Shown piece after piece: positions 15,806-64,000 of a stretch of DNA of 64,000 nucleotides (within the stretch, counting starts at the first letter, position 1; the number at the start of each line of letters is the position of its first letter). The stretch is taken from contig NC_079889.1 of the NCBI RefSeq assembly GCF_029227915.1, positions 1,052,001 to 1,116,000 of the forward strand, written 5' to 3'. The notes beneath the pieces were generated by a model. That model worked only from the letters and a program-made list of their open reading frames with translations, was not told where the DNA came from and did no database searches. The translations under genes and the position numbers were made by a program. The stretch comes from Hydractinia symbiolongicarpus (Eukaryota; Cnidaria; Hydrozoa; Anthoathecata; Hydractiniidae).

Positions 15806-15829
15806 ATAATACAAGTTAAAGGGGTAGTT

Positions 15830-18925: not shown

Positions 18926-20115
18926 AAAACGGAAATATTTGATGATGTCATTGAATTTCCGCGCCCGAAGGCGTAGGAAATTCTTTAAAACCGTCGTTTT
19001 TTTCTTTTGGAGCATTTTTTGAGAAAAAATCGACCCTGGGATTTCACGTTCCTCTGATTTTTTGTTACCTAAATGTCATTTTACGCCAAAATTGGTTCAA
19101 AAATCAAAACTACTTTATTTTCCACAATATTTAGCACAGTTAACAAAAAAAGTATACTGAACATGATGGTGACATCAAAATTTCTATTTTTGGCCACCTT
19201 AAATGTCATTTTAGGCCAAAATTGGTCCAAAAATTAAAACTACTTTATTTTCCACAAAATTTGGCACAGCTAACAAAAAAAGTATGCTGAACATGATGGT
19301 GACATCAAAATTTCTATTTTTGGCCACCTTAAATGTCATTTTAGGCCAAAATTGGTCCAAAAATTAAAACTACTTTATTTTCCACAAAATTTGCCCACCT
19401 AACAAAAAAAGTATGCTGAACATGATGGTGACATCAAAATTTCGATTTTTGGCCACCTAAATCTCATTTTAGGCAAAAATTAGTCCAAAAGTTAAAACTA
19501 CTTTATTTTCGACAAAATTTTGCACAGATCACAAAAAAAATATGCTGAACATGATGGTCACATCAAAATTTTGATTTTTTGTCACCTGGAATGTCATTTT
19601 AGGCCAAAATTGGTCCAAAAATTTAAACTACTTTATTTTCGACAAAATTTGGCACAGTTAATAAAAAAAGTATGCTGAACATGATGGTGGCATCAAAATT
19701 TTGATTTTTTGCCACCTGAAATGTCATTTTAGGCCAAAATTGGTCCAAAAATTTAAACTACTTTATTTTCGACAAAATTTGGCACAGTTAATAAAAAAAG
19801 TATGCTGAACATGATGGTGGCATCAAAATTTTGTTTTTTTGTCAACTAAATGCCGTTTAAGACCATAAACGTTTCAATCGGAAGACTTTCAACCATGAAT
19901 GATAGGCTATAATTTTGTTCGCAATTTCTTTTAAAGTGTGAGTTTATTATGACACGTTTCGTTTTGTTTGCGTTTTTTGTAAGATGTAATGTCACTTGTG
20001 TGTTTTATCTTCAGAGCTTCAAGCACCAAACCTCTTCGAATGTTTGGCACGATAACAACGAATTAGCAGGTTGTCATCAAATATTTTGGTAGCGAGCGGA
20101 AATTCTTAGAGCCCC
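18926..20115. mobile_element. Candidate non-autonomous element carrying a 130-bp tandem array
   Basis: Flanking the tandem array are two pairs of inverted words: AAATATTTGATGA (about 18934) with TCATCAAATATTT (about 20075), and GAATTTCCGC (18953-18962) with GCGGAAATTC (20096-20105). Near the right side GAGCCCCCAGGGCTTC can form a short hairpin. Internal minisatellite plus subterminal inverted repeats plus a 3' hairpin resembles Helentron-associated or similar non-autonomous elements, but no transposase or Rep/helicase is present, so the class is a guess. Confidence 0.4.
19071..19870 (+). repeat. Tandem array, about six copies of a 130-bp unit
   Basis: The word AAATGTCATTTTAGGCCAAA restarts at about 19071, 19201, 19331, 19459, 19590 and 19719, with a truncated copy at about 19848: a period of 128-130 bp. 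Each unit also has CTACTTTATTTTC, AAAAAAAGTATGCTGAACATG and ATGGTGACATCAAAATTT. The copies differ by few substitutions. No frame stays open across the array. Confidence 0.85.
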
Positions 20116-32600: not shown

Positions 32601-33472
32601 TCTAAATGTTATCCTCTTAAACCACGTTAGTTTATTCATTTCAGCTTAACGTCTTCTGATAATACTTAGGTAAACAAAACACAAAGAGTTGCGGTGGAAA
32701 GTAACATGTTAAACGAGACGAGATTTGCTCAACTGTGTTGTAATGAGAGAGTAAAACGTGGTCGATTTTTTTTTATATTTGCTTAATTTTTATGTTATTT
32801 TATTTCTTGTTCTTATTTGCTTACTTTACATCGAATATTATTGCAACTCTATGAAGAGCAAATCTTTTTTGTTAAGCTTTCATCCAAACGCAGAAACTAT
32901 GGCATCTAAAAAATGACTAAGATTAAATCCGGGCAAATATTTGACCAGTGTCTCATCTCCCTAATTTTTATACTTAGATTTATTTCAGATTTATTTCATC
33001 CTAAATTTAGCAATTTAGAAGAGAGAGTTAGATATTTAAGAGATTAACCAAAATAAAAATTACTAAAACAAAAAACAAAAACACATGGTTTGTAAACTTA
33101 CAAACCATTAGTGGCTGCAAGATCTAAAAATATTCACATACCTGTCATATTAGGTGGTGGACCAAATTTACGTTGACCATTATTTTGTGTGATTGGGTAT
33201 CCAGTTCTTTCCATCAGCTCTAACAAAGCTTTTTCATTGGCTAACCCAGCAACAGCCTCCTTCCCAACTTTAACTGTTGTTGCATGTCCGTTCTCTGCAC
33301 TGTTCACTGTCATCTCTGCGTTTCTTTTTGGTTGTTGTTTGGGTTTCTGTTGTTGTTGTTGTTGTTGTTTGTGATTCTTTGGTGATGGCAGTGTTGGTGG
33401 TACAATATTGTTATTCAAATCAGGTGTTGATTGATTCTCGAATTCGTTCAATTTCTTAGAAATATTAATCAT
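23450..33472 (-). CDS. A1CF/RBM46-like RNA-binding protein (three RRMs plus dsRBD), ten exons
   Basis: Coding exons, 5' to 3' on the minus strand: 33472-33142, 32296-31755, 28833-28665, 26560-26344, 26077-25918, 25677-25588, 25343-25248, 24729-24627, 24105-24043, 23637-23450. All junctions are GT-AG and the sum is 1,959 nt, 652 residues plus stop. RRM1 (about 119-196) has VFVGKL and [11 protein letters not shown]2 (about 199-281) has LFIGGI and [11 protein letters not shown]3 (about 294-365) has LYVRNL and DYCFVHF. The signature [16 protein letters not shown] between RRM2 and RRM3 and a C-terminal dsRNA-binding-like segment (about 504-570, [16 protein letters not shown]) place it in the A1CF/RBM46/RBM47/DND1 group; three RRMs plus the dsRBD argue for A1CF or RBM46 rather than RBM47 or DND1. 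The family binds AU-rich RNA; A1CF is the APOBEC1 editing cofactor in mammals, RBM46 acts in germ cells. Length is slightly above the roughly 590 of A1CF. Start chosen: the first in-frame ATG (33472). Confidence 0.93.
24043..24105 (-). CDS. A1CF/RBM46-like, exon 9
   Basis: A 63-bp exon reading [20 protein letters not shown]. Phase 1 at both ends, so it can be skipped in frame. Confidence 0.8.
24627..24729 (-). CDS. A1CF/RBM46-like, exon 8 (dsRBD, second half)
   Basis: It reads [20 protein letters not shown], then [14 protein letters not shown], the helical end of the dsRBD-like fold (typically an EAK..AAEYTL pattern). It ends with split codon G|GT. Confidence 0.9.
25248..25343 (-). CDS. A1CF/RBM46-like, exon 7 (dsRBD, first half)
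   Basis: It reads [20 protein letters not shown] and ends QLFLYK, close to the C-terminal double-stranded RNA-binding-like domain of A1CF. Phase 0 at both ends. Confidence 0.9.
25588..25677 (-). CDS. A1CF/RBM46-like, exon 6
   Basis: Thirty codons, [18 protein letters not shown] onward, phase 0 at both ends, so skipping would keep the frame. The linker precedes the dsRBD. Confidence 0.85.
25918..26077 (-). CDS. A1CF/RBM46-like, exon 5 (RG-rich linker)
   Basis: It reads [20 protein letters not shown] and onward to GGGNNLSQ. The RGRGR cluster resembles the arginine/glycine linker in this family, a possible methylation and RNA contact site. Donor GTAAGA, phase 0. Confidence 0.88.
26344..26560 (-). 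CDS. A1CF/RBM46-like, exon 4 (end of RRM3 and linker)
   Basis: It completes RRM3 with [20 protein letters not shown], a strongly conserved family block, then becomes Pro/Gln-rich. Donor GTAAGG, phase 2. Confidence 0.92.
26561..28664 (-). other. Intron 3 of the A1CF-like gene
   Basis: A 2.1-kb intron. On the same strand, 27673-27858 holds a protein-like open segment ([18 protein letters not shown], three more cysteines nearby) preceded by TTTTAG; inclusion would need a donor I cannot find, so it is more likely a relic than a cassette exon. Confidence 0.55.
28665..28833 (-). CDS. A1CF/RBM46-like, exon 3 (RRM3, first part)
   Basis: It reads [18 protein letters not shown] and onward to EQMQ, with RNP2 LYVRNL and RNP1 DYCFVHF. 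The split codon G|GA continues in exon 4. Donor GTACGA. Confidence 0.92.
28834..31754 (-). other. Intron 2 of the A1CF-like gene
   Basis: A 2.9-kb intron. The open frame on the other strand at 30073-30351 has an ATG but no recognisable domain. A pyrimidine-rich stretch lies at 31285-31355. Nothing else is supported. Confidence 0.7.
31755..32296 (-). CDS. A1CF/RBM46-like, exon 2 (RRM1 and RRM2)
   Basis: It starts [13 protein letters not shown] after TTTTTTAG and ends ...EEIMDQ at a GTAATA donor, phase 0. Both RRMs lie in this one exon, with aromatic RNP1 residues intact ([16 protein letters not shown]), so RNA binding should be preserved. The 3' part holds the diagnostic [13 protein letters not shown] block. 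Confidence 0.93.
32297..33141 (-). other. Intron 1 of the A1CF-like gene
   Basis: An 845-bp phase-1 intron, AT-rich, with the direct/inverted words TTTGTAAACTTACAAACC near 33090. No other feature is seen. Confidence 0.7.
33142..33472 (-). CDS. A1CF/RBM46-like, exon 1 (N-terminal region)
   Basis: ATG at 33472 reads [12 protein letters not shown]; the frame is open further upstream but without another ATG. It contains a seven-glutamine run within a K/Q/P-rich low-complexity stretch and then the family's conserved pre-RRM block, [20 protein letters not shown]. It ends ACA G| at a GTATGT donor. Confidence 0.85.
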
Positions 33473-35956
33473 TATAGAACTTTCCAACAAGTAAAGTCTT
33501 GTGTAAAGTGTAAAATTTCGTAATTGGTTATGGATCAAAAGGAAATCACGGAGTCAATAATCTTGAACAAAAAAAATCCCTCCTTGATTTTATCAAATCA
33601 TAACAGTTATGAATCTAAAAACTCTGTTTCGACGCGTTTATTAACACAGATTTCTTTTCAATGTTGTTTTTGTCTCGTTGACTCAACAAAAACAATAACG
33701 AACACGGGCAAACAAGTCAATATTATTTCAACATTTACAATACAAGTGAAGAGAGTGTGTTTGACCAACTCACGTCACGTGACCGTCTTTCTAAAAAGGT
33801 TTGTAGAATCTGCGCAAATAGAAATTTTAAAAGATGTTTGTTTAGCAGTAACATGTGATCTATATATTTCTCTGGTAACTGAGCAATTTTGTCTCGATTA
33901 AGTAAAATTTAAAATTTTAATAAATTGTGCATATAAAATTTTTTATTTGTATACTGTTACGTCTTGTTACATAAAGGTTGGCTCCTACCCCCGGATTAAA
34001 CGCTCGAGTAAGCGAAAAACGAGTTAAATTTAAATGTTCGTTATTTTTCCTTATTAATTTTTAGGTCAAAAACTGAAAAATAAGAAGTAGTTCAGGTAGG
34101 CAAATGAACCCCCTAAAATTTTAACAAAATCTGCCTTAAGTTTAATTGTGGGTTTTATAATAACGGGGGCAAATTTTGAAATTCGATCATGCCGTGGAAC
34201 ATTCTTTAAATAGTGTTTATTCAAAACAACTTAATCTTTCCTAAACAAAAGCGTCGGTATGTTGTCATGGTTTCAAATAACAAAAGAACGGATCACGTGG
34301 TTAAAACGGTGTCGCATTGCGCAAAACGTTTCAATAAATGCCGCCAAAAGAAAAATCAGAAAGCAAGTCGTTTCAGCTTTTAAGAAAATCACGTGTTTGA
34401 ATTTTTTAAATATGTTTTAAAAAAATTGATATTTTCAAAATTTTCAAAAACAAATGTATCATTCGAAATAAAATGCATTATCACATTGAAATAAATAAAT
34501 AAAAAATTATTCTTACTTTTTACTTTTTTTAAAAACTTAATTCTTCTCAAGAGCATCTAATTCTTAAAGAATAGAAAAACACGTGCTTCCTTTACTCCAA
34601 GACCTGACCAACATAACTTAAAAATATACCTCCACCTTACTAAAAAAATAAAAACGTTTACAGGTCGAACTTAAACAAAATGTTGACAGGTCACTTAAAG
34701 CAGGAAATAATTAGATAAAATAAAATGAAACCATAAATAAACATTTTAAAAGCAGAGATGGGTATCCACATCGTTTCGTAATAATATCTAAGAAAAAAAT
34801 TCATTAAAATCATCATACTTTCTCTGCCTTTAAACTGTAACATTTTATAACATCTATTACCTTTCTGAGTATTGTCCACGTCTATTTGAAATCCAAGAAA
34901 AATTTAAACCTGTTTAATTTTATCTTGAGTTATATTTAATTATTTATTATCCTGATCACTAGCGTATATATGACATTGGCTTAGTTTACTTAAATCGCTA
35001 GGATTTAGAAAGCATGCATGATATATGAATAGCATTGATTGCCAAATATATAATCCTGCCTAAGCGTGTTGCCACCATATTTGTTTATGTTGAGAAAACA
35101 AGCATCGCAAATCAGCACGAAAGTTGGCTTCGTCTAAACATGCGTCTGCCATCTTTGTTTATTTAGTAACTTAGTTACTAAATATTTGCATACATTCTTT
35201 TGCTAATAGTATGTGAGTGGTAAGAGCAAACATTTGGGGTCTTGTGATTTTCTCAAGTCGTTTCAGTCAAAGCGTAGCTGAAATTTTACACCATTTAAGT
35301 TTGATCTTTGCACTTTTAACTTTTAACACTCTTCTTTTTTGTACACTAAACAAGGAATAGACGTTTTGCATAAGAAAAAATCTTATAAACCAACAAACCT
35401 TGCAAAAAAAAACAAGAAAAATATAATTTCTAAGTATTTTAAATGATTTAAAGAAAAACCTTATTAAGGATAAAAAATATATATATCTTTGTCGTTTTTA
35501 TTCCCCCAAGGTGTTATTGTTGCCCTTTAACTGAATTGGGCCTAGTTGTTACTCTAACTTTGGTGACCGTTGTTATTCCAGGATAGATACTTGGTAAATG
35601 TATATTTGAGTGGGCGCAGGGGCCCAGGAGGGGTTGAGCTTAATCAACTCGTTAAGTACGGTCTTGGTCTAGGAAAAATTATTATTTCAACTAATGGTGT
35701 CATCAAATTTCCGGAAATGCGTAAAAATTAGCTGAAATTTAAAATTCATAGAATATTGGTAACATTGCTTGGTATTTAGTTAATGTGACAAACAAAAAAT
35801 AATGTTTTGATTGCAATAAATAGCTTTTAAAAACATTAAAGGTTTTTTCAAGACTTTACTCAATTCGAAAAAATTGCGTCACTTTGGCATACTTTCCAAA
35901 GAAAAATTATGAAAAATGAAATCTAAATAGAAGTTAGAAAAAGTAATAAAATCTCA
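33473..35956. other. Upstream region of the A1CF-like gene
   Basis: It should contain the promoter and any untranslated 5' exon, but no specific element is recognisable. The 125-codon open frame on the plus strand (33524-33901) overlaps this region and has no recognisable domain. The rest is AT-rich without repeats that I can define. Confidence 0.4.
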
Positions 35957-48812: not shown

Positions 48813-49012
48813 CTAATTTTTGTAGACCAAAATTTCCTCCAATTCCTGTGCCAATTTTTGCCCCAACACAATGTCTCCTTTGTCTCTTTCAACGCGGGGA
48901 AGCTTGTTAAAAGATCTTTTTTTAACTATCTCAGCAATTGCCATATTGATTGTAAATTTTACAGATCTTCCTGAATGAGTTTCAGAAGAAGGAGTTGATT
49001 TGGTTTCCTGTG
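48813..49012 (-). CDS. Mosaic protein, terminal exon 12
   Basis: It reads [20 protein letters not shown] then [20 protein letters not shown] and ends [12 protein letters not shown]. Acceptor TTTTAAAAG (weak, and not the nearby CACAG, which would shift the frame). A possible amphipathic helix with no known domain. Confidence 0.68.
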
Positions 49013-50381
49013 CTTTTAAAACGAAGATAACATCTTCATACTTGAAGAATGAATAAACAATTTTCCACTTATAATTAAACGTCTATGATTCTCACCCCGT
49101 GATATTTACTTTCGAACATGGGCGTTTTTTACATGTGGGCGTTTATTATTAACACATTTTTGCGCTTACCCTAGATATTATAGAATGGGCGTTTCTTTAC
49201 ATGTGGGCGTTTATCAACTATACATTCGTGTACTTAACCTGGATATTTGAGTGTAAGCATTTTTTCAGATGAAGATGTTTATTATTAATATATTTGTGTG
49301 ATTGCCCTTGAAAAATCAAAAGCATAGCCGTATGTGGGCGTTATACATTCGTGTGCTAACCTTGAACATTCTAAAACGGGCGTTTCTTTGTCGTTGGCGT
49401 CTATTGGGTCATCGATGATAGTTTTGTTATCTATCTTCACTGCTTCTCTATAATCTGACACGTCAAAAATTTGCTTCTACGTTTTTTTTTGGTTTTTTTT
49501 GACTGAAAAAGTCTGTAAAATTTTTTAATTTAAAATTTAGTTAAACACACGAATGCAGTGATTTAATGTTCTAAAAAGTCATTATAAACTTAGGATCTAA
49601 CCCAAAAAGAAGAAATTAATGATTTCCACTATCTGTTACTTTCTTGGTGGGTTTCGAAAACTATTACATAAGCTAAGTGATGTTGTTTCTTAACTGTTCC
49701 AAGTAAGTTACCTAATTGTTCTAAGTAGGACAGTAGGACGTTCTGTTATTTTTAAGACATGTTGTTTTTAATGCAAAGTGGTTGCCACGTTTCCACGTTT
49801 TGTAATTGATCGTTAATGTTTTGTTTCTGCTGCCTAACCACTGTTTCGTGTGAAGTAAAATAATTTGTGGAGTATAAACAATATTATGAGTTTCATTTTG
49901 TTGGGTTAAAACAATCTTCACAAGAAAAACAACTTCTGTGAACTAAAAGAGGAAAACCAAAAAGTTAAACTAATTTATTAATAAAGAACATATTGACAAC
50001 TTGTTTTAATAGGTAGACGATTAAAACTTGATTAAGTCTGTATTGCGGGAAATGGGAAATTCCTTGTTTCGTGGTTGCATGACAAAACATGATACCAAAA
50101 TAGCCTAAGCGCATAAATTAACATAATTTAGTTTCTGTTGAAGATTATTAATTATCAAGACACAAGTTTTGCATGAATTAGTTTCGGTTTCTTAAAATAT
50201 ATTTTTCCGAATAGCACTTTGTTACAGCACATTGGATCATATGCGAATGAGATGAGCAAGAGCAATAGAAAAGAATCATGGTTTGTAAAACTTGCATCTT
50301 TATGAGGTGTTTTCGCTACATGCGATCAGTGTTTGTGTTGCTTGTGAAAAAGCTAAGAGAACGAACAGAGCGAAGAAGAAG

Positions 50382-50412
<31 letters not shown>

Positions 50413-53400
50413 GGAGGGCGAGTGGTGCGTCAAGAATCTGAAGAGCATGGCGACAGTGAGTTGCTTGTTTCGAAGCAGTTTTCATATTGTTATGTCCAAA
50501 CGATCGAAGAAGATGGAACTAGGTTAATTACCTTACGAACAGATAAAAGAACTCATGTTGTGGTGAATCTACCCTAAGTTACTTATTTTGGATGATGGAA
50601 CGTATGTTTGAAATTTGTAATTAGTTGTGATTTTTTTTATTATTATTTTGAAGTAAAAAATAATATCGTATTTCGAGAGAACTGATTCGTTGCCACGTTA
50701 AATCTGGCGAAGTTTGTTACAGAAAGTACAGACACTTAAAAGCAGATTTTTTTAGCATAACTTTGTATATATATTACGGCATCTATGTAGCTCCATCGGA
50801 CTTTATTTTTTTTGCTATTATTCTTTCTGACTTATCCATGAAGTTTTATAAAAAATAGTTCCAGGGCAAACCTGGAAATACAATACATTTGCTGATATTG
50901 ACGCAGCGAAAGATCACAAAACAGACATCCATCGTTGTCAAGGAGAAAAATTAATCTGACAAGTTTATAATACAATTATTTTTTATACCCATTTTAAATA
51001 AAACAAGACGTATGATATACGCAAACAACCTCGCGAATAAAGTTTACAAAAAGCTGTCTATCAAATTGGGATTTTTGTTACGAAGTTAGACACGACATAT
51101 TTTACTATTCAGATACGCAATAATATTTGTTACACACTTATTTTTCAAAATTGATTTGTGAGACCTTCCTGAACGGAAAATTCCTCGAACTTTTAATTTT
51201 CGATGGGTCCCTCTTGGGTGAGCCGACTGACAGGAAGAAGAAAGACCACAAACCCACAAACCCCAAAATTTGCGAAATTCATTAATTCGGTTAATTCTGC
51301 CTACATTCACTTTTAAAAAGTTTGGTGGAAACACCTTTATTTACTAGTTAGTTAAACAAGTGTTTTGAACACTTGTCTTATCTTTTTAAAAAAGAAAAAA
51401 GAAAAAAAAAGTAAAAATAGTTACCAAGATGAGATTCGAACACACGACGACTCACGTGTCGGTGCTCAGAGAGGCAAAATTTCCATTCTTGTAGGACACA
51501 TTTGCGTTTTAATACAAGCTCACGAGCTTGTAAAAGACATACGTTTTATGCCGTTATTAATATTCGCAAAACATAATTTTGCAATTAATATATTCTTATA
51601 GAATAATATAATTATAGATTAATCCAAAATTTGCTGTGGGTTGGTCCTCTAAAAAATCCCTATTTTCCGCAGTAGAGTCTTTTAAAAACGCAGAATTAAA
51701 TATTATAGAACACACTCTATTCTATCTAACTTGTGGTCATTTTTACAAACCAAAATTTACAAGTATGAAAATATATTATAATTATCCCCTAACGTGTACA
51801 TCATTTAACAGAACTGATAAATTCAACATTTTACGATCCCAACTCAAACTCCACCATGTTTTGTTTATTGTCTTGTGATGAAACAAGGAATTGTCTGTCT
51901 TCAAGTTGTTGTTATCATAAAAAAACATGCACTATTTCTTATTACTCCCAGAAGATGATTGCATGTTTCAGTTGAACTTTACTTGGGTCGAGGGCGTTCT
52001 AGGAAATTAAAAGTTACTGTATCGTAAGTCAAGGCGTACATATATACGACATGATAACATTAAAAAGAACACAGCTAAAAACAACACCACTGACATTAAT
52101 TTCATACGTAAAGTAATTATAACAATTATTTATTTATTTACTGAGCTCTAAAAATTCTGAGTGTCTCGAGAAAAAATTTGTTTTGATAAACGAAAGAAGA
52201 ATTAACGTAACCTATTTATTTAATATGCTATACGTAGTATAACTGTCATAGAGGGTGAAGAGACGCATGAACTGCGATGGAGAGATTTCAAAGCGATAAG
52301 TTGTTGCTACCTTTGGGTAACGCATAAACTTATATTCATATACACAGGAAAATGTAAAATTTAAAAACTTACCCGACTTTTTCGAATGCAAGTTGTTTCC
52401 TATTGTACTATAGATGTCTTCATTGTATTTATTCAGTTTTTTCCTTGGTGTGTGTGACCGTGATTTACCTTTTTTCAGGTGGGTAAACTCAAGAACTAAA
52501 TAAAGAGTAATTTAGAACATTGCGTACTTATATTTCTCAAATAAAGTATCCAGGATTTATAATGCTCAACCTACGCATATCCGCGAGTAAAAACGACTGT
52601 TGTCTGTAGAAACAGGCTAATTCCATTACATTGTTTGAAAATATAATTCCCGGAAAATAAAAGAAAAATTGCATTCCTTCCTTCGAGAAGCTTTCTCCTG
52701 CATACCACATATTTGTAAAAACGATAAGATCGTAAGTTTAACTCTATTCGGACTGGGGTTTTTCGAACATACTATGACCGGGGAGGGGGGGGGGAATCCG
52801 CCCCCCTCAAAAACTTGTCATAGGGTTGTTCAAATTGAATCAAACTTGTCACACTTATATTACGTCATAAAAGGAACAAAATCGGTTTTTTTTCGATTTT
52901 CGGGTAGACAAAATCGGGAGATCGGATTAATCACGTGTCCAATTTATGCAAACCGATTCTTCTTAATAGAACAAAGTTGTGTTACAAATTTCAAATTCTA
53001 AAAATAATCTTAACAGGAGTTATTAAATTTTCCCCTTTATAAGGATTTCATAGAGATTTTTAGGGGTAGTTTCGAGTAATGGCCAATATCAAGGCCTCTG
53101 AAAGGTATGGGACCTAAAATTTGGCATACAGGTGTCTACTAGATAAATATTGAACTCAGTAAGTTTTATAGTCATATAACACAATAATAAGGATTTATTA
53201 AAAAAAAACCGTTAGGGGGGTCGAATCAGCCCCCGGATCGAATAGGGTTAAAATGCAGAAACACTTTGAAATTCACATTCTGCATGCTTAACAGAAACAT
53301 CAATCCAGTGAAAAGTGTAGTAAAGAGAATGGTAGCACATGTAACAAGGAAAATAAAAAGATGTGTTTAGAAGACGTACCTTGAGTAGTCTCCACATGGT

Positions 53401-56400
53401 GAACTGGTTTCGTCGTTTGAGTTGTGTCTTGATATTTATCAGGATTACTCAATAATGACAAACCTTGCTGCTTTGCATTCACTCCTCTTAAATGTTTATT
53501 TGTTTGTGATGTTTCAAGAACATTGTTTAAATTTTCTTTGTCTTTTTCACCGTTGCTATCCTCCTCGCTTGATTTATGCAGCTCTTTTAAAGAAGTAGTT
53601 GACAAAACTTTAGCTAAAGCACTCGTGGTGGAAGCGTGTTGTGGCATCTTTTCGACGTCTACAACATCATTCCCAAGATTAACTTTGTGAGAACGTTTCT
53701 TTTGTTTTAAAAGATTTAGTTTTTGTTGCAGAAAATTAACCTTTTGTTCTTTATCGGCTATTTTGGTAATTTGCGCTACTTTATGAAAAATATCTTTTTC
53801 GAAGTCATTACTAGTATAATTAGCATTATCTTCGTTATCGACGTCATTTGGTTCGGCTGCCGTTAGTTTAGTTACTTTCTTGGCTTTCGATTTTGTAATA
53901 GGCACCACAACAAGACCGGAATGTTTATGACCAGTCAAATGAGTCAATATCGGTTTGTTTATAAATGGTTTAACTGCATCATGTGCTCTCGTGTTTAATT
54001 TACTACTTTCTTTGCTACCATTTTTGCTTTCCTCCTCATCATCATCATCGTCATCATCATCTTCATTGCTTTCGTCATCATCAGAGTTTTCATTACTCGA
54101 AGAAACGCTAGTTGCGTTTCTCTTAACAAGATTGCCATCAGTTTTTGAAGCAAAGAATGATTGTCTCTTTGTACCAGAACTTCCTGTATATTGAAATACT
54201 TTGTATTATATAAGAGCAAGTTTGATTCATAGAGACAAATCATTTCATGGTTACAAATATGTTTATTGGCAGTGAAGTACTCACAATTGAAATTTGGTGC
54301 GGATCTAGGCTAAGATTAGTCTGGTATAACACACAAAGAGGAAAACTTCATTCAAGGCTAATCATTTACCTGCAGCTACTGGCATGTCTCCTCCCATGTC
54401 AGCATACGCCTTCTCTGTATTGACATTGAATCTGTCAAGAGTTACAAATTTACGCTCTTTCTCATGGCATGATTGCAAACATAAGCATGAATTCTTTAAT
54501 GCACCAGGTCCAACAACTAAACTCAAAATAATTGAAAGTACCAGTCGTTAGCCTGTGGAAAAATCCACGGTTTTGCCGGTTGCAGCTAAGCTACCATTTT
54601 ACGTGACAGACAGACGGACGGACAGACGTATACGGGCATTATAATAGATTATATAGGAGTATTATCTGGAAGATTTTTAAGGTTGATGTAACAAGAGCTG
54701 GACTAAAAGCTGCATCAGACAGTTCATACTAATAAAGCAACGAAAAAAACTTAACTTTTCATAACTTAAAAAAACATACTCACAAACCGGAAACAATTTG
54801 ACTCACCAATCGGCATGTTTATTTGTGCAATGCTGTCTTTGCTGTCAACTAGATCATCTTTTTCCCACGGGACGTTTTCACCTTTAAATCCCACAAAAAC
54901 ATATTTATCTCCCTTTCGTAATCGATTGGCTATCAAACTTCTCGCTCCAGTGCTACCCTAATATAAGAAAGTATTTGGAGTTTTATATTATTGGCCAACA
55001 AAGATTCGGTGGAAATAATCAACTTCGGTCTATATCTCTATGAATAATATAACCCAAATGTTTTCCTTATACTATACTTCGATCTAGTAAAATTCTTAAC
55101 CATTCGTCAAGACTAGTTTACTCTGGCAGTGTCAAAGATTCTTCAGAGCTAACGTCTTTCTGTCTGTCTACCTTTCCATGGGCTTGTAACTAGTCTCTTT
55201 TAATATGCACAAAACAAACTTGCTACATAGTTACTTACAAGCACCCTATAGGCATCATCAATCATTAACCGCCCTGCATTGCCACGTGTAGCACCTAATA
55301 CAACTTTTCCAGGTGAAAGCGATCTGATGAAGTTTGTCATTGCTTTTGCAGCTCCTCCATCAGATTCAGTATCAAATGTTTCAGTAGCTTCCACTTCACC
55401 AGTGTTAAAATCAACAACAACAACATTGAAGCCATTTTCATCTTTGCTCCAATCCTCACTATTGACCTTTATAACAGCTCGTTTATCAGAAGACTCAACA
55501 TCCACAAGCCGGCCAACTATATAATGGTGCATAAGAATGATATTTTTCGATCAACTTAAATGTAATTTATTCATTGGGTGCCCTGCTGTGTGAGGCAAGA
55601 AGACGTACAAGGGCAATAGCATGACTATGGCTGAGGGGGCTGTTAGTTCCAGTTAAGCAAAAAAGAATTAGAATTAAATCTCCTTAATATTCAAGTTATG
55701 ATATTTATTTATTTATTCAATTGCGATAGCGCGATGGTTTGGTTTCGGCTTGGTTCATCGTCAATTGGACGTTTTTAAGGTGGTTTAAAACAATTACTTT
55801 TATACGAACATTTTCCCGCACTTTGTGAATAGATCACAAAGTGCGGGAAAATGTGCAAATCTTTCATTTTAACCAACGGACATTAATAATTTATGAAGTA
55901 TAATATAAGTTTGTTTTTACACAAACGTATCGCTTCTTCTTCGCGATTGTAATATGCACAGCATTTTCTTGTTTTTGTTTTCATTTTAACACTATACCTA
56001 TGTATACATCGTTAATTGAAAGGGAAGCGTTTCACAACAACGCATGCAATAACTTACCCGTTACAATCACAAATATAAAAACAAGGTGAATCCCTTGGTA
56101 GTGTATAAATGGTCAGGTAGTGGCTAACTATTATTAGGTTGAACGCTGAACCAACGCACTGATTTTTAATGTATTTTTAATATCTCAAAGATGATGAAAA
56201 GCAACGTAACGTATATTTTGCAGGTTTATTGTTCATAATGTTACGGTGTAATCAATGTTTTTAACTTTCTTTTAAATGTACAAATCGACCTTTTTTATTT
56301 TAGTATTCACTTTTTTTACTTCTTTGTTACTTCGAATAATTACATCCGCTTATGTCGAGTTTCATGTTTTTGTTATCACAACTCTATCACCTATTTTAGA

Positions 56401-59400
56401 TTTGCTTTATTTATTTTGGCGCCGTAGCTTGGTGGCTATAACTCTTGTACTTTGTGCTGGAGACCAGGGTTCGATTGTCCTTCGCCGAAATTTAATATGG
56501 GCGAGTGAATGTTACCATAGGCCCGGGTTAACCCAAGTCAGGTAAGGGAAATCGGGCCGTTGAATATTGCAGAGAGTTGTTTGGTAGAGCGCGAACCCTA
56601 ATTAAGTCAGCGTAGTTTAAAAAATCAATAATAAATATTCTATCACACCCCATCTAAGGCATGGCTCTTCCTGGAAGTAATAGACAGGGTATATCCCTCG
56701 ATATTTGTGAGGCTAGCCATGTAAAATATGCCCATCTAGCTAAATACCTAGCAGTGATTCGGGAAAAATACTTACTCAAAGCTCTTTTGTTACTGCATTC
56801 TGTCCAACCTTAAAAATAAAACAGTTCACTAGATAAAAATTCATATACATTACAAGCTCATAACCTAGTCAAATACGCCTTCAGATTACTTACATCTTGT
56901 AGAGAAACCAGTTTGTTCCTTACCACAGTTTGATTTCGTGCTATCCTCTGGTTTAGTACCATCAACGTTTACCAACTCACCTCCACCAAATTTTCCATCT
57001 GAATCAGGTGTTCTTGAACTTGCTGCTGACTCACCGACATGTTGAAGAGAGTGAGCAGGATTATTCTCATTTTCCGTATGCTCTTTTGCTGTTAAACTGG
57101 CAATAACATCTGGCATGGGAGTATTTTCTTTATGTCCTAATGCAGAAGCTATCATAGCTTCCAAATTTGCGTAATTTGCTCCTTGGTTGGCTGCAGCTTC
57201 AATGCTTTGAGCTGTAGCTTCTGGTCCTTTATTTTGTTGCATACTACCTAGTTTAGCAACAACTTGCTGTATAATGTCTGGTGTAATGACGTTATTAGAA
57301 GGCTTTGTAGTTAATGCAGCTACCTCGGGTACCTCGTGCGGTTGTTGCGTTGCAGAAACACTTTGACTATTTACCAAACCCACCTGCGTTGAAGAACCAA
57401 TTGGACCTTGTCCCGTATATTGCGAATCAATATTTCCGGGCATTTGAAAATTCCCCCCACCGGCTCCTGCATCAAATGCCGGAACTGGGCTGTCTGAGAG
57501 TCCCCCACCACTTGGGCCGGGTACCATGTAGTTATTGGTCCTTGTTGCAGCTACAACATTAGGCAAGCTTCCCCCAAGCCCTCCTGCTAATGCATCAGCG
57601 CCACTACCACCTAAACCTGCGGCCATTGCAGCCAAACCAGCAGTACCGGGCGCTGCTCCTTGTTCAGCAAGTGCTAGAATAATTCCTCCAATCAATCCAC
57701 CTGGACTCTTGTTAGTACCCACTGCCTTTAAAGCGGCAGCTAATGCTGCATAACCAACTGCTGCTCCGGCTCCACCAACTCGTTGCAGAGCTTGTCCTAG
57801 CTGGTCTGCAATCCTTGCTACTGTTATGTCTCTGCCATCTTTTAAAAGTTCGTTTAAGCTAGCAATTCCAGCCGCACTTGCAGCCCCTCTTCCTCCTAAA
57901 TCAGCAATAGATTTCGCAAGTTTTGATGCTAAGCCTAACTTCAATGCCGCGTCCTTGTTATTGTTAGCTCCAGCTGCTACAAATCCAGACGCCATTAATG
58001 AAGCTATGCCTGTTGCTCCAGCGTCAGGAATTCCTAATGCACTTAATGCTGACGCAAGCCTTGATTCTCCCACGTTTCTTCCACCAGTCATGTCTGCAGC
58101 TGCTTCCATAGTTGAAGGGCCCCCATTGAATGAAGGTGTTTCTAATGGAGCAGGAGAATTTCCTTCCGCATCACTTGTTCCTGGTGCTTGCATGCCCATA
58201 TTTCCGTATGGATCGTCTAACCCTGAAGCTGGATGATATGCCTTAGCAGATTCTGCAGCTGCCTTTGCAGCACCATAGAGTGCACCAGTTTTTGCGGCGG
58301 CCGTGTTCACTGAAGCTGCTTTTGCCTCATCCGAAGCGCTTTTAGATTCTTGTTTAGATATATCATCGTGACTAGAATGAGTAGTTATATCAGGCGAACT
58401 ACCGGTATTTTGCTTTTCTGTTCGTGTAATAGCGTTATCATTAACTACGTTCAATAACGGACTGGGTGTGTTTTTAATAAATTCTTCAACAAAGGATTTA
58501 TCCGGCTGCTTTTCTTTCGTTGTATCGTCAAACGAATTTGTATCTATGCCCAAAGATTTAGCAACATTTAAAAGACTACCCACTGGGTCTACTGGAGAAA
58601 GTAGTTTTACAATGTCTGAAGGTTTTAACGAATTTAATAAATCTGATTTTCCAGGAACTACTTTCTTAATTTGGCCTTGGGCTATTCCTGTGCCACGTAA
58701 ATTACCAATCTTACCAGCTGTATTTCTGTTCACGCCCATCGCACCGGCACCGTTTAATTGACCAATTGAAACACCATTGCTACTTGAAGACCCACCACCT
58801 GTACCACCACTTAATTCCCCGGATATGCCTCCTGCGGCACCAGCTGATCCGCCACCCATTCCACTATTTTGAGCACTACCCATAGCTTCGCCGCCTCCTC
58901 CTATCCTACCACCACCTGTCCCTTCTCCCAACGCGCCTGCTCCTCCACTAACACTTCCTCCTAAGTCTCCGCCTGCACCACCAGCTATATCAGCCCCCGT
59001 ATTACCAGATACTCCACCTCCCGCATTACCAGAAATACCTCCACCCATCTCACCGCCTGATATACTTCCTGCACCAGCTGCACCAGCTACCCCGGTTGTC
59101 CCAGCTGCACCGCCTGCACCAGCTGCTCCACCTGCACCACCTACGCCACCTCCACCTGCTTCACCACCTACACCACCTGCACCACCTACACCACCTACAC
59201 CAGCCGCACCACCTACACCAGCTGCACCACCTACACCAGCTGCACCACCTACACCAGCTGCACCACCTGCACCAACTGCACCACCCACACCAGCCACACC
59301 ACCTACACCAGCTTCACCACCTACACCAGCTGCATCACCTATACCAGCTGCCCCACCTACACCAGCTGAACCACCTACACCAGCTGCACCACCTACACCA

Positions 59401-62400
59401 GCTGCACCACCTATACCAGCTGCCCCACCTACACCAGCTGAACCACCTACACCAGCTGCACCACCTACACCAGCTGCACCAGCTGCATTTCCTCCCATAC
59501 CACTTACACCGCCAGATACGTCACCACCTGCACTACCACTTATTCTGCTGCCTGCCATTTCCCCTCCACCAGCAGTTATACCACCACCTGCACTACCACT
59601 TATCCCACCGCTCGCAATATCCCCTGCACCGCCAGATATACCACCACTCACGCTTCCACCTACACCACCGCCCGAAATACCTCCTGAAACACCAGACATG
59701 CCACCACTTTCACTATCACCTATACCACCACCCGTCTTACCCCCTATACCGGCAGCTCTTCCACCACCTGCACTACCACCTATCCCATTGTTCGCTCTTC
59801 CCCCACTTGCTCCACCAATTGCAGCACCAGTTTTTCCACCAGCATCTATTCCCGCGGAACCTCCGCCAGCAATGGTGCTTCCAACAGCAGCATCACCGCC
59901 TTTCCCTCCCCCTTCGCTACTGCCTGCAGCATCCCCTATTCCAGCATTTACACCTCCATTTTGTTTTCCCCCTGTAACACCGCCTATACTGTCTCCTGTA
60001 TTACTCCCTCCACCAGAACCAGCGGAATTTCCTGCTTCTTTACTAGCAGCAAGCCCACCACCAATTCCACCGGAGAGTCCATTGCTTGATCCTCCTGTAC
60101 CATCTGCAGCACTTGCAGCACCTGCAGCACCTGCACTACCTGCACCACCTGCACTGTCGCTTTTACCTACCTCTCCTTCATTTGTAACCCTGCTTCCAGC
60201 GCCGTTTGAACCTTCCATGTTCCCTCCGGCTACTGTGGCTCCAGCCTGTGCACCTTTTAACATTCCATTCATAACCTGTGTCATCTTTCCACCAGCTATT
60301 TGATAAGCTTCTAAACCTATAGTAATAATTCATTAGACATCAATAAGATATCACACGTAATAATCATACAATTTTTGTACTAAAATTGGCATAAACCGAC
60401 AAATTTTTAAGAAACGTGGATAATAAAGGGAGATAAGATATTTTGAGAAGTGTGTATACAGAGTCACTTCTTTAAAGAAGGCATATTATTATAAACTAGT
60501 CGGTGACCTGTGCTTAAAATCCACGGGTTCGTCTACCTTTATATACCGTTTGCTTGGGTCTTGCTACTGACGGGTAGCATTTTGCGCATAGACAGACAGA
60601 CGACACATAATGTTGCTGTCTTCCCTGCTTATTAGAATCAAGAGAAGAAGAGAATACGACCATCATTCAATACGTTGAATTTAAGGTGAATTGCTACACC
60701 ATTTGCGGTCGTTATGTTATGGTAGAAATGTCAGAGGTTTATAAATTGATCTTACATATATTTTTTTTTAACTGAGGCAAGCATGTCAAATTAAGGTATA
60801 GTCTAATTACCTGCGACAATACTGACACTTATTACACTTGGACCTTCAGCAGCTCTGCTGTTTTCTTCACGTATCCAATCCATTTTTGCACGAGCACTCT
60901 CTGGTCCAGTCAATCCAACAAAAGCGTAACTGGAACGAAATTCAAGTTTTTGTGTCGCAATATCTTTGGCACCAATTTTTTCCTAAAATATCAAAATTTA
61001 ATAATCAGATGAAGATTCATTCTTGCGCTAAGTTTAGCATGGCCAAAGGTATAAATCCAATAATCCTGTACAGATATCGAAAGAAAAATAATATAAAGGC
61101 ATAGGATAAATATATTTACAAAGTTTTTAATTGCTGAGTCAGGTAAATAATTCTTCCCATCATCTTTAACTGCTACACATATTATTTTCCAATTGTCTAG
61201 GCCACCGATAAACTCCTCCAACTTTTCGTAAGCACCTGCTTCGCCATGAGTGTCAAAAGAAACTGACTTCTCTTGTTCGCCAGTTTTAAAATCGATTACA
61301 ACAAAATTGAAACCAGGTTTATTTTGACTCAGTTCTATTCCATTGACGACGATAGAACCTACAGTATCATCACAGTTGCTTCCATGGAAGGGCGGGTCGA
61401 AACATCCAACAGATTTAATAGTCAAACGAAGTGTCGTGGCTGGAATATATTAAAATATAATTCATAATAGCAGCTCTCTCAAGATACACCGTAAACAAGA
61501 AAGACTTATCCAAGTCTTCTGTAACAACAAAGCACACACGCATAAACAACCTGCAGTCTAACCGTTGCTTCATTTTTCAGCAAGCTTATGCTAATCTATT
61601 TTTACGTGTAATAATTTAAAACATTGTTGTACTAATTTGAATCATTTATATTCAACTCACGTGGTATATGAGTTTATCGTTACGGAGGTGGTGGGTTGAT
61701 TAGAATGTGCAATGAGAGAGCGTATATGTTGTATCACCGCTTATTTTTACCAATATGGTAATTTGAGTTGTTTTAACTTTTAATAGGACTGATCTTAAGC
61801 TTGGTTTGTTGTCTATTTATTTGTTAAAATATAATAAGAATTGAATCTAACGTTGTTTGAGTTTTTTTTTTATCAAGAGGCACGTCCTTAAAAAATTTTT
61901 GTTGTTAAATTTCGTATGATATTCTGGATAATGTAACACAAAAAGTGACTATGATAATTTGCTAAGTCAATTTTAGAGCTTTGTGTGACATAAAAATATA
62001 TTTTATACAGGCACTACCCAGATTACATGGATGTGGATATCTAAAGAGAAGTGAATAGCAATTTAAAACATGCTTAAAATGGATTAGTTGGATCAAATCT
62101 CAATCAAAAAATCCATCTGGTTATGGGTATTTTCAATTTTTTAGATTTGCTGTTAATAAGGGCAATGCATATACGGCATGCAGAAACTTCTCCACTATTG
62201 AATTTCATTATGTGGCTACTGATCTAGCTAGAACAAGGATATTGCAAAAAGAGTGCTAGAATCCATTAATTTTCTTACCTTTAAAATATAAAAATGACAG
62301 AAGTAAAAGAGCTTTGCAAAAGGAATTGTAAAGTATTTTAAAGTATTTTAAAGTAGGATAATTTTGTCTTACGTTTTGCTGCAGCTTTTGCTAAAGTGTT

Positions 62401-64000
62401 CATTGCTTCCTCGCTCATCTCTTTTTCTCTTCTCGACACATAAATATCACCTCGCTTGTTACCTGTCGTATCAGGCTGTATAAACTTCCGATGACTCTTT
62501 TTGTTGGATAGAATTCTCCATTGATTAACAAATTGGGAAGTCTTATCGTCATCACTTGGATTGTCATCCAATCCTTCGTTATACAGACTCACTTTTTCAT
62601 TGTCTGAAAAAATGGTTTTAGTACTTTATTTTATATAAACTTATGTCAATGTACTATATATTGGACGCGATCAATTGCCTTCACGCATGTGACTTTGTTT
62701 GGATAAGATACAATAGATAATAAAAAAAAAATTATGGAAGGAAAGGTACACCTAGAAAAGTTAAAAAAATGCAGAACTTTGCAAAAGCGTTATATATTCA
62801 AAGCAAATGCGTTTTTGTACGGTATCTATTAAGTAGTATTGTCTAGTAGTATTGTCGAAAATATGTCTCTACCTGATCCTTTAAGGTAGTCTTCAAATCC
62901 CATCCCGTCTACAGATTTAAACTCAGTACGATCCTTAACATTCTTTTTAAATGGAGTTCCAGAATGTCTCAATGGCTTCTCATCAATTATATCTTGCAGG
63001 TCGGTATCTAACTGTTCAATACGACTTCTTTCATCTTTATCTTTCAAGTTTTCCTCGCTAGCTTCTTCTATAACTTCGTTAGCAGTTTGTCCATTATCAC
63101 TGGATTCTTTGGTTTCATCGTTGGCCAATATATCTGCAGCAGTTTTGTGATCAAAGTTATCATTCTGTGTAGCATATTGAACGTGTTCTGTTATTTCATT
63201 TTCATCTGGACCTTGATCAGGAAGATTAAATGATCTGCTTGATGTAATGGCATCGTGTGCATTGTCAGGCTGAAAATTGGCAGCTAGCTCCTGTAAGTAA
63301 TCCTTGTACTCTGTAACTTTATTTCGTAACCATTTCAGTTTCTTTATTTTATATTGTTTTAGGTCTTTTCCGTAGCTTTTCTTTTTAGAATGGTGTGATT
63401 TCTTGCCGTTGCTGTTTTGAAATTTTGCTGCCGCATGGCCAATCACATCAACAACATCTTCACCTTCGCTTAATTTATTTTTAATAAAGTCTTCTAGATC
63501 TTCATCGTCTTTATTTTTATTTTTACTTTTCGTTTTTATATGTTTCTCATGCACAAAATTCTTCATTTCTTTTGCCAATGTTTCAAATGCTTTTAAGTTA
63601 TCTCCTTCGGTTATGCTAGGAACAGAATTATTTTCATCTTCGAACGGGTGCGTATTCTGGTGGTCATGATCTTTCCATTCTTCTTGTTTTCTTAGTCTTC
63701 TACCCCTGGAATGCTTCTTCTTTTTTCTCATAGATATTGTAAACATTTCATCATCTTCGCCTTTATACGTATCTTTCTTCCCAGCATCTGCTGCACTTGA
63801 ATCTGCTTTAAGAAATTCGTCCTTGTAGTTTTTGTCATCCGATGTTTGTTTATTTTTGCCATATTCTAAAGGCATCGGAGCAGAATCGGGAATGTTTTGA
63901 CTTACAGATGGTTGTTTATGTACTGATGAATTATCAATTGAATCCGAAGCTGAACTGGGAACGATTGATGGAACTGGCAAACTGATTGGATATGTGTACG
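48813..64000 (-). CDS. Giant secreted-type mosaic protein: two ILEI domains around a Gly/Ala-rich silk-like region (5' end outside window)
   Basis: Twelve exons on the minus strand: 64000-62873 (partial), 62603-62373, 61439-61120, 60982-60811, 60316-56894, 56808-56776, 55516-55239, 54957-54807, 54516-54370, 54183-53380, 52495-52373, 49012-48813. All junctions are GT-AG and frame-continuous: 7,010 nt, about 2,335 residues visible. Order: charged K/E/D-rich region; ILEI domain 1; 1,141-residue Gly/Ala/Ser exon; microexon with two cysteines; ILEI domain 2; acidic low-complexity and basic tail. ILEI domains (FAM3/PANDER type, also in POMGNT1 and CEMIP-type proteins) are shown by [13 protein letters not shown] and [13 protein letters not shown], then FDT, a helix with FI, and YAFVGLTG / YVFVGFKG. 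The Gly region is not collagen (no steady G-X-Y). Ten of the twelve exons abut phase-1 introns only. Secretion is inferred; the signal peptide would lie beyond the edge. I know no named gene with this layout. Confidence 0.85.
49119..49410 (-). repeat. Degenerate tandem repeat with GGGCGTTTMTTTACATGTGGGCG
   Basis: The word GGGCGTTT(C/T)TTTACATG occurs at 49120 and 49186 with weaker versions at about 49257 and 49379; TGTGGGCGTTTATTATTAAC recurs between them. The period is roughly 66-70 bp at first and then irregular. Confidence 0.55.
50278..50577 (+). CDS. Questionable 99-codon ORF across a GAA microsatellite
   Basis: It starts at ATG 50278 and includes a run of 13 arginines from the AGA/GAA microsatellite. 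The part after the run ([20 protein letters not shown]) looks protein-like. It lies antisense in an intron of the mosaic gene. It may be chance; no homologue recognised. Confidence 0.2.
50378..50411 (+). repeat. GAA/AAG trinucleotide microsatellite
   Basis: About eleven uninterrupted AAG/GAA units at the core of a longer purine tract (50370-50415). Confidence 0.85.
51421..51486 (-). repeat. Possible tRNA-derived fragment
   Basis: On the minus strand GTGTTCGAATCTCATCTTGG resembles a B box and 3' end of a tRNA, preceded by GAGTCGTC. No matching A box or acceptor stem is found, so it is at most a SINE fragment. Confidence 0.3.
52373..52495 (-). CDS. Mosaic protein, exon 11
   Basis: It reads [20 protein letters not shown] then [20 protein letters not shown]; basic. 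Phase 1 at both ends, acceptor CTTTATTTAG, donor GTAAGT. Confidence 0.7.
52496..53379 (-). other. Mosaic gene, intron 10, occupied by a MITE
   Basis: An 884-bp phase-1 intron, more than half of which is the element at 52737-53252. Confidence 0.7.
52737..53252. mobile_element. MITE with TTTAACYCTATTCG terminal inverted repeats
   Basis: Left end TTTAACTCTATTCGGACTGGG (52737) and right end read in reverse TTTAACCCTATTCGATCCGGG (from 53252) match over the first 14 bases with one change and on in a G-rich tract. The length is 516 bp with no transposase. Frames such as 52669-53001 ([19 protein letters not shown]) are by-products of the G-rich ends. Confidence 0.75.
53380..54183 (-). CDS. Mosaic protein, exon 10: acidic then basic low-complexity region
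   Basis: It starts [20 protein letters not shown], has an N-glycosylation-type NATS, then an Asp/Glu run (eight D followed by three E) at about 54035-54060, then a lysine-rich part with a coiled-coil-like stretch ([20 protein letters not shown]). Phase 1 at both ends. An apparent break near 53950-53995 in simple ORF calls is only a frame artefact: one frame is open throughout. Confidence 0.78.
54370..54516 (-). CDS. Mosaic protein, exon 9: cysteine-bearing linker
   Basis: It reads [20 protein letters not shown] then [20 protein letters not shown]; three cysteines in eight residues suggest disulphides. Phase 1 at both ends. No domain recognised. Confidence 0.72.
54517..54806 (-). other. Mosaic gene, intron 8, with interspersed repeat
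   Basis: It holds a repeat copy at 54539-54650 (ACCAGTCGTTAGCCTGTGG hairpin start, GACAGACAGACGGACGG tail and TATACGGGCATTATAATAG end). Confidence 0.7.
54539..54650 (+). repeat. ACCAGTCGTT interspersed repeat copy
   Basis: Same family as 15336-15805: hairpin CCTGTGGAAAAATCCACGG, ACCATTTTACGTGACAGACAG and the TATACGGGCATTATAATAG end. Confidence 0.7.
54807..54957 (-). CDS. Mosaic protein, exon 8: ILEI domain 2, C-terminal part
   Basis: It reads [20 protein letters not shown] then [20 protein letters not shown], the closing strand KYVFVGFKG being equivalent to YAFVGLTG in exon 4. Starts phase 0, ends phase 1. Confidence 0.82.
55150..55200 (-). repeat. Reverse-oriented ACTAGT interspersed repeat fragment
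   Basis: On the minus strand: GAGACTAGTTACAAGCCCAT, GGAAAGGTAGACAGACAGAAA. A truncated relative of the 15.3-kb family in the intron following exon 7. Confidence 0.4.
55239..55516 (-). CDS. Mosaic protein, exon 7: ILEI domain 2, core
   Basis: It reads [20 protein letters not shown] and contains [48 protein letters not shown] and MIDDAYRVL. Same order as exon 3. Starts phase 1 and ends phase 0 (donor GTAAGT). Confidence 0.85.
55808..55854. repeat. Perfect 21-bp hairpin, 5-base loop
   Basis: ACATTTTCCCGCACTTTGTGA (55808-55828) pairs without mismatch with 55834-55854; the loop is ATAGA. Intronic. It is GC-richer than its surroundings. Either a tiny foldback element or a structured RNA. Confidence 0.7.
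56418..56620 (+). repeat. tRNA-derived SINE, family 3
   Basis: Head GGCGCCGTAGCTTGGTGGCT (A box TAGCTTGGTGGC), B box GGTTCGATTGTCC near 56468, then a body with CCCGGGTTAACCCAAGTCAG and TGGTAGAGCGCGAACC. The tRNA part can pair at its ends (GGCG / CGCC), but the anticodon arm is degenerate, so it is a SINE, not a tRNA gene. Confidence 0.65.
56776..56808 (-). CDS. Mosaic protein, exon 6: 33-bp microexon
   Basis: It reads [11 protein letters not shown] (first C completed across the junction), phase 1 at both ends, between TTTTTAAG acceptor and GTAAGT donor. It supplies two cysteines just before ILEI domain 2, at a place similar to the two cysteines (GCFDPP...NCDD) in front of ILEI domain 1. Without it the frame still continues, so it can be skipped. 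Confidence 0.65.
   Translation of the reverse strand, partial: VGQNAVTKEL
56894..60316 (-). CDS. Mosaic protein, exon 5: 1,141-residue Gly/Ala/Ser silk-like region
   Basis: A single 3,423-bp exon, phase 1 at both ends. It opens [20 protein letters not shown], then about 470 residues dominated by G, A, S, I, V (GGISGGAGD-type and GGAAGVG-type blocks), a polar linker (about 58740-58200), an Ala-rich helical block (about 58090-57560; [20 protein letters not shown] and [20 protein letters not shown]) and a polar C-terminal part ending EQTGFSTR. It has no clear G-X-Y collagen rule. Cysteines are nearly absent until the end (SNCGKEQ). Glycine codons are mostly GGT/GGA, as expected for this AT-rich genome. 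Silk-, spidroin- or elastin-like mechanics are inferred from composition only. Opposite-strand frames here (for example the His/Leu-rich one at 59096-59977) are shadows of the repeat. Confidence 0.88.
59180..59510 (-). repeat. 18-bp / 72-bp coding repeats (GGAAGV units)
   Basis: On the plus strand the 18-bp unit CCACCTACACCAGCTGCA is repeated with small changes, each coding six residues (GGAAGV). Four units form a 72-bp higher-order repeat: ATACCAGCTGCCCCACCTAC occurs at 59341 and again at 59413. This marks recent unequal exchange inside the exon. Confidence 0.85.
60317..60810 (-). other. Mosaic gene, intron 4, with an interspersed repeat
   Basis: A phase-1 intron of 494 bp. It holds an ACTAGTCGGTGACCTGTG repeat copy at about 60492-60610 with the GACAGACAGACGACA tail. 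Confidence 0.7.
60492..60610 (+). repeat. ACTAGTCGG interspersed repeat copy
   Basis: AAACTAGTCGGTGACCTGTG, AATCCACGGGTTCG, then GTAGCATTTTGCGCATAGACA and GACAGACGACA. Same family as the 15.3-kb array, within an intron. Confidence 0.65.
60811..60982 (-). CDS. Mosaic protein, exon 4: ILEI domain 1, C-terminal part
   Basis: It reads [20 protein letters not shown] then [20 protein letters not shown]. The YAFVGLTG strand corresponds to the (W/Y)AFVGxKG strand that closes ILEI domains. It begins phase 0 and ends phase 1. Confidence 0.82.
61120..61439 (-). CDS. Mosaic protein, exon 3: ILEI domain 1, core
   Basis: It starts [20 protein letters not shown] and contains [46 protein letters not shown] and [14 protein letters not shown], the strand-helix order of ILEI/FAM3 domains, with three cysteines. 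It begins in phase 1 and ends in phase 0 (donor GTAAAT). Confidence 0.85.
61440..62372 (-). other. Mosaic gene, intron 2
   Basis: A 933-bp phase-1 intron, AT-rich, nothing recognised. Confidence 0.7.
62373..62603 (-). CDS. Mosaic protein, exon 2
   Basis: It reads [20 protein letters not shown] and onward to [10 protein letters not shown]; polar, helical, no domain recognised. Phase 1 at both ends. Donor GTAAGA. Confidence 0.75.
62604..62872 (-). other. Mosaic gene, intron 1
   Basis: A 269-bp phase-1 intron with a TTTTTTCAG acceptor. Confidence 0.75.
62873..64000 (-). CDS. Mosaic protein, exon 1 (partial): charged N-terminal region
   Basis: Open to the window edge, so the start codon is outside. 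It is rich in S, D, K and E, with basic clusters ([28 protein letters not shown]) that offer many dibasic cleavage sites, then an acidic part ending GFEDYLKGS. No globular domain recognised. Donor GTAGAG, phase 1. Confidence 0.8.

Follow-up and report, generated by a model that had tools for sequence, protein, structure and literature searches.

A gene on the minus strand of a 64,000-nt stretch of Hydractinia symbiolongicarpus DNA (NC_079889.1; the whole stretch is hereafter called the window) encodes a protein with two ILEI domains and, between them, a core of 171 residues that is more strongly conserved than either domain. Judging from comparison with its relatives, this core is the shared centre of the protein, and the far larger silk-like Gly/Ala/Ser region in the same exon is not. 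A known domain, ILEI, is here found in an architecture that we did not find described, together with an unnamed core; it is already in public databases, where its name was assigned automatically. These results bring out an unstudied family, present in the laboratory jellyfish Clytia, and a very strongly constrained domain without a curated family match.

Gene model

The gene runs from beyond position 64000, where its 5' end lies outside the window, down to 48813. Twelve exons joined in frame, from 63998 (open) to 48813, give 2,335 residues and a stop codon (Table 1). All 11 introns have GT-AG borders, nine in phase 1 and two in phase 0, and the last intron is ~3.4 kb long. An earlier note on this DNA had proposed twelve frame-continuous exons coding for at least 2,335 residues, and the consistent frame and phase across the junctions bear this out.

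We scored the codon use of the exons as log-odds, excluding every exon from its own training and taking 2,000 random intron segments as the null. Any stop codon in a null segment lowered its score, which makes an open frame count in favour of an exon; in exon 5, the last 497 codons were scored. Ten of the 12 exons outscored 2,000 of 2,000 intron segments. The score of exon 6 was reached by 153 of the 2,000 segments and that of exon 11, a weak one, by 20, so both exons are left undecided by codon use.

Cysteines are present in the lead of ILEI-1, in the lead encoded by exon 6 and in exon 9. The highest 19-residue hydropathy (not a TMHMM value) in the available part of the protein, from which the N-terminus is missing, was 1.39. 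In the protein pieces scanned, Pfam gave no domain above cut-off besides ILEI. Past ILEI-1, outside the stretch that Pfam assigns to the domain, exon 4 encodes an extension (17-residue type) that P0015, P0016 and Clytia share with strong conservation.

Table 1 Features of the two-ILEI gene, in window positions.
Feature	Position	Strand	Description
Exon 1	62873..63998	-	Open at 5' end; charged, Lys/Asp/Ser/Glu-rich; unmatched among retrieved proteins
Exon 2	62373..62603	-	Charged; unmatched among retrieved proteins
Exon 3	61120..61439	-	First part of ILEI-1; Pfam ILEI; nine relatives (P0001, P0003-P0010)
Exon 4	60811..60982	-	End of ILEI-1 and conserved extension (WIREENSRA); P0015, P0016, P0022
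Exon 5	56894..60316	-	Holds the silk-like block, the anchor motif, the conserved core and a variable end
Silk-like Gly/Ala/Ser block	58632..60284	-	Between exon-start motif and anchor motif; 18-bp and 60-bp tandem repeats
Anchor motif, 19 aa	58542..58598	-	Common to P0019; weakly P0022
Ala/Gly/Leu-rich core domain, 171 aa	57558..58070	-	Conserved; all-helical in low-confidence model
YTGQGP motif	57384..57437	-	Conserved, after core; matched by pattern in six of seven relatives and by eye in P0019
Exon 6, 33 bp	56776..56808	-	Cys-containing lead of ILEI-2; P0022 in overall alignment only
Exon 7	55239..55516	-	First part of ILEI-2
Exon 8	54807..54957	-	End of ILEI-2
Exon 9	54370..54516	-	Cys cluster after ILEI-2
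Exon 10	53380..54183	-	Charged tail with Asp/Glu run; likeness to P0022 confined to the first residues (GTKRQ)
Exon 11	52373..52495	-	12-residue match (EDIYSTIGN) to P0022; weak codon score
Exon 12	48813..49012	-	End and stop codon; unmatched among retrieved proteins

Elsewhere in the window, a minus-strand ORF in the region 31746-33553 contains two RNA recognition motifs (Pfam RRM_1, 97.2 bits), and upstream of it lies another ORF (33134-33553) without a Pfam match; the region may encode an RNA-binding protein of the A1CF/RBM46-47 type. A plus-strand ORF at 17640-18143 weakly resembles a reverse transcriptase (RVT_1, 22.1 bits; cut-off 29.6, not reached) and is probably a retroelement remnant. 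Two tandem repeats look non-coding: 15429-15806 (172 bp, 2.2 copies) and 19056-19852 (130/388 bp, 6.2 or 2.0 copies). Neither Rfam nor a tRNA scan gave anything in the 64-kb window.

The two ILEI domains

Both ILEI domains recognised in the earlier note were confirmed by Pfam (PF15711): spliced exons 3 and 4 scored 72.0 bits and spliced exons 7 and 8 scored 70.9 bits, against a cut-off of 27. The unspliced ILEI exons scored 47.7 and 55.6 bits, and this rise on joining indicates that the splices restore domain sequence. The sequence relatives of the domains in the PDB are FAM3B, FAM3C, FAM3A, POMGnT1 and cell surface hyaluronidase. The ILEI-1 exon was not found in viral contigs.

ILEI-1 and ILEI-2 are 34% identical and lie about 1,150 residues apart. 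Both have phase-1 introns at their boundaries and one internal phase-0 intron at the same aligned column, and this agreement points to duplication of a single exon module. Each domain is closer to its counterpart in Clytia (66.7% identity for ILEI-1, 53.4% for ILEI-2) than to the other domain of the window, which places the duplication before the split of the lineages.

Relatives and the Clytia protein

A profile of both ILEI domains retrieved 17 proteins. Sixteen are single-exon pieces of the two-ILEI family, nine of them corresponding to exon 3 (P0001, P0003-P0010), five to exon 7 (P0002, P0011-P0014) and two to exon 4 (P0015, P0016). At the placed splice donor, all nine exon-3 pieces and all five exon-7 pieces read through with Val (GTN). 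Some of these 14 pieces nearly duplicate one another (such as P0012/P0013) and others hardly differ from the window (P0001, 99.0%; P0002, 97.8%), so they do not stand for 14 independent species. P0020/P0021 are near-duplicates too, and the number of relatives should not be taken as a number of independent species. The remaining match, P0017, was rejected as a member of the two-ILEI family. In this 227-aa protein, from a contig of 3,493 bases, ILEI is joined to ankyrin repeats, an unusual partner for the domain.

Searching with the later part of exon 5 gave at least seven proteins, a lower bound drawn from the 7,994 candidates (~627-1,995 aa) that had the most words in common with the query and were scored. 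Six of these core-bearing relatives are single-exon pieces. For one of them, P0024, and for the exon-3 piece P0004 the longest contig is 6,636 bases, which suggests that the two may lie together. A search of long proteins, run with the 2,335-aa query over its ILEI-2 region, gave none at E 0.01 or better among 569 candidates; the length floor of ~1,284 aa for such a query excludes the Clytia protein described below, so this result is no evidence of absence.

The seventh core-bearing relative, P0022, is a predicted protein of 1,175 aa from the leptothecate hydrozoan Clytia hemisphaerica, listed in UniRef as 'ILEI/PANDER domain-containing protein'. It gives the window protein a cnidarian relative, and the ILEI-core-ILEI layout, by which we propose to define a family, is present in both. 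Its two ILEI stretches and core are collinear with those of the window: BLAST matched exons 3, 4, 5, 7 and 9 in order, and exons 6 and 8 were placed by the overall alignment, exon 8 giving only a faint BLAST match (E 0.074). The match to exon 10 covers the first residues only, and that to exon 11 a stretch of 12. The two proteins also share the YTGQGP and GGELV motifs, the Cys lead and the Cys cluster. P0022 differs from the window protein in lacking counterparts of exons 1, 2 and 12, and in its pre-core linker, which is 2.2% Gly with no silk-like block; its Gly-rich patch lies after the core. The predicted protein starts ~35 residues before ILEI-1, with no signal peptide obvious by eye.

Clytia is genetically manipulable, so the function of the gene is directly testable there. 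In the open-licence literature, as covered by titles and abstract starts among the matches listed, we found no description of a two-ILEI family, of the core or of ILEI together with a silk-like region; the earlier note had likewise not known this architecture as a described family.

The conserved core

The core is free of gaps across the window, Clytia and six other relatives, while the linkers around it diverge. With P0021 left out, 123 of the 171 columns are invariant in the seven sequences, and pairwise identity is 78-98%; in alignment A2, the six relatives are 80-84% identical to the window. Its identity to Clytia is 83.0%, above that of ILEI-1 and ILEI-2. Ala makes up 25.7% of the core, Gly 19.3% and Leu 14.0%.

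Neither Pfam nor NCBIfam gave a match to the core above cut-off. Matches below the Pfam cut-off (HTH_15 in five of seven members, best 21.7 vs 27.2 bits; DUF6471 in two; HTH_24 in one) were rejected as probably driven by composition, as were those below the NCBIfam cut-off. A profile search of the PDB with the core returned nothing significant (best E 0.064). AlphaFold modelled helices throughout at low confidence (mean pLDDT 43.5 alone, 46.3 with seven relatives), and Foldseek found no match to this model at E 0.001 or better (best 0.96), the model being too weak for this to say much. Two peptide patterns each, searched in prokaryote genome contigs and in viral contigs, found no core.

Within the core, a repeat of ~42 residues has partial support that is suggestive only. 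The local scores between its putative units were reached by 1 of 500 shuffles for R3-R4, 2 for R2-R3, 12 for R1-R2, 23 for R2-R4, 74 for R1-R3 and 240 for R1-R4.

Possible roles of the protein

Of the roles we considered, a secreted, self-assembling structural one appears most likely, and we propose it tentatively. In the conserved plan, ILEI-1 would be followed by a fast-changing linker, the core and a second linker that also varies; a Cys-containing lead then introduces ILEI-2, behind which come a Cys cluster and a charged tail. The protein would be secreted into an extracellular material, which might be cuticle, perisarc, mesoglea or nematocyst wall. There, copies of the core, if helical as predicted, could pack through close Ala/Gly contacts and so build the material. 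The Cys-bearing ILEI domains would form folded ends, with the tasks of keeping the chain in solution and tying it to partners. Spacing would be left to the linkers, the first of which presumably grew in this lineage, through tandem repeats, into a flexible spacer of Gly and Ala.

In P0019 and P0022, two of the seven relatives, the core is followed by a patch in which 26 of 80 residues are Gly. These patches suggest that sequence of low complexity tends to collect next to the core, as passages of PMC4944945 describe for silk-like structural proteins. No solved structural protein matched the core in the PDB sequence and Foldseek searches, and strong conservation of a non-repetitive core would also suit the binding of a fixed partner.

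Such partner binding belongs to a different reading, which we consider unlikely but deserving of weight: that this is a glycan-binding or signalling protein. The ILEI domains would then bind sugars of the GlcNAc type, as happens in POMGnT1, FAM3C and C. elegans FAMP-1, and the core would have a binding partner in place of building a material. The nearest solved relatives of the ILEI domains, listed above, fit this reading, and a partner-binding surface would suit an invariant core. According to the accessible text of PMC9802357, GlcNAc is bound by the stem domain of POMGnT1, by FAM3C and by Fam3L2 of FAMP-1; the contacts in POMGnT1 are Arg129, Asp179 and Arg207, and a FAMP-1 domain without Asp179 and Arg207 does not bind. 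At these three positions ILEI-1 has P, D and R in both the window and Clytia, so that two of the three contacts are retained and Arg129 is substituted. ILEI-2 has N, G and G in the window and D, G and P in Clytia, none of the contacts in either case. The full set is thus absent from both ILEI domains. Asp179 itself is kept in only three of seven aligned exon-3 relatives, or in five of nine when P0001 and P0007 are added by eye. At the level of aligned residues, this speaks, though not decisively, against POMGnT1-like sugar binding as a shared function of the ILEI domains.

The structural reading has a more specific form, which we regard as speculative and rather doubtful. The core would stand for a new class of helical structural domains capable of self-assembly, and silk-like, Gly-rich blocks would have arisen beside it independently in different lineages of hydrozoans, before it in the window and after it in Clytia and P0019. 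If true, the family would offer a natural example of how silk-like sequence evolves beside an assembly nucleus that stays fixed.

The silk-like block

Exon 5 encodes 1,141 residues, among them 300 Gly, 190 Ala and 112 Ser. At a threshold of at least 25% Gly per 80 residues, it contains a single long run of 577 residues (aa 612-1188), and smaller overlapping runs fall in and after the core (aa 1452-1598). The long run has no Cys, and its commonest hexamers are AAGVGG, GAAGVG and AGVGGA. Tandem repeats with units of 18 bp (20.4 copies) and 60 bp (4.7 copies) lie within the block. On its flanks, the exon-start motif is common to P0018 and the anchor motif to P0019; the patterns of the two motifs were unmatched in the other relatives, the weak likeness of Clytia to the anchor motif apart.

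Before the core, the Gly maximum per 80 residues is 43 in the window and 5 to 11 in the seven relatives. The block is very probably lineage-specific, and we read it as a tandem-repeat expansion in the lineage of the window. The patches in P0019 and P0022 show that the window is not alone in having Gly-rich sequence beside the core, and this complicates a simple story of expansion.

The earlier note had taken the silk-like region for a core capped by the ILEI domains. This is not supported, since the pre-core stretch is not Gly-rich in any of the seven relatives and what they share is the later 171-residue domain. The claim could be kept if an ancestral silk-like protein with ILEI caps had lost its silk part in the relatives. 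The large size, open frame and Gly content of the block would suit such a history, as would the post-core patches, but the block is absent before the core in all seven relatives whereas the core is so well preserved in six, and its tandem repeats are what recent expansion would be expected to leave. We therefore consider a silk-like functional core improbable. A lineage-specific block would mean that a silk-like, low-complexity stretch can arise inside an older protein and leave the conserved parts unmoved. The comparison also sets right an understandable error, that of mistaking an eye-catching repeat for the core.

Continuity of the gene

Exons 3-9 almost certainly form one gene of the two-ILEI/core architecture, because the predicted Clytia protein contains two ILEI domains in matching order; being itself a prediction, P0022 settles one gene against two for these exons only to that extent. 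The single gene assumed in the earlier note is in this way supported for exons 3-9, and for exons 1, 2 and 12, unmatched among the 24 proteins retrieved, the support consists of frame, phase and codon use. That the exons come from two or more neighbouring genes, the mosaic being an artefact of modelling, is very improbable: these unmatched exons and the long last intron would allow it, but counterparts of exons 3-9 are united in one predicted protein and each of the 11 junctions is consistent in frame and phase.

Comparison with known systems

The ILEI domains of FAM3 proteins, the POMGnT1 stem domain and cell surface hyaluronidase are homologous to those of the window, where the GlcNAc contacts are partly kept. 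In all of these proteins the surroundings of ILEI differ from the architecture described here. FAM3 cytokine-like proteins are small and consist essentially of one ILEI domain, unlike the window protein with its 2,335 residues and two ILEI domains.

Two FAM3-like (ILEI) domains also occur in one protein in C. elegans FAMP-1 (M70.4), as far as the available part of PMC9802357 describes it. There, the pair is in tandem at the N-terminus and is followed by a POMGnT1-related C-terminal domain, whereas in the window the two domains are widely separated. Hydra cnidoin resembles the window protein in being cnidarian, with a Gly-rich, silk-like centre and Cys-bearing ends; in the portion of the source at hand (PMC4321713), it has Gly/Gln-rich GXGQQ repeats and minicollagen cysteine-rich domains, where the window protein has Gly/Ala GAAGVG repeats without Cys and ILEI ends. 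Silk-like structural proteins (SLSPs) are defined, in the accessible section of PMC4944945, by a Gly content of 25% or more over 80 residues together with a signal peptide; having no transmembrane segment is a further mark of the class. The 577-aa run, with a maximum of 43 of 80, places the Hydractinia protein with this class by Gly alone, the end that would carry a signal peptide lying outside the window.
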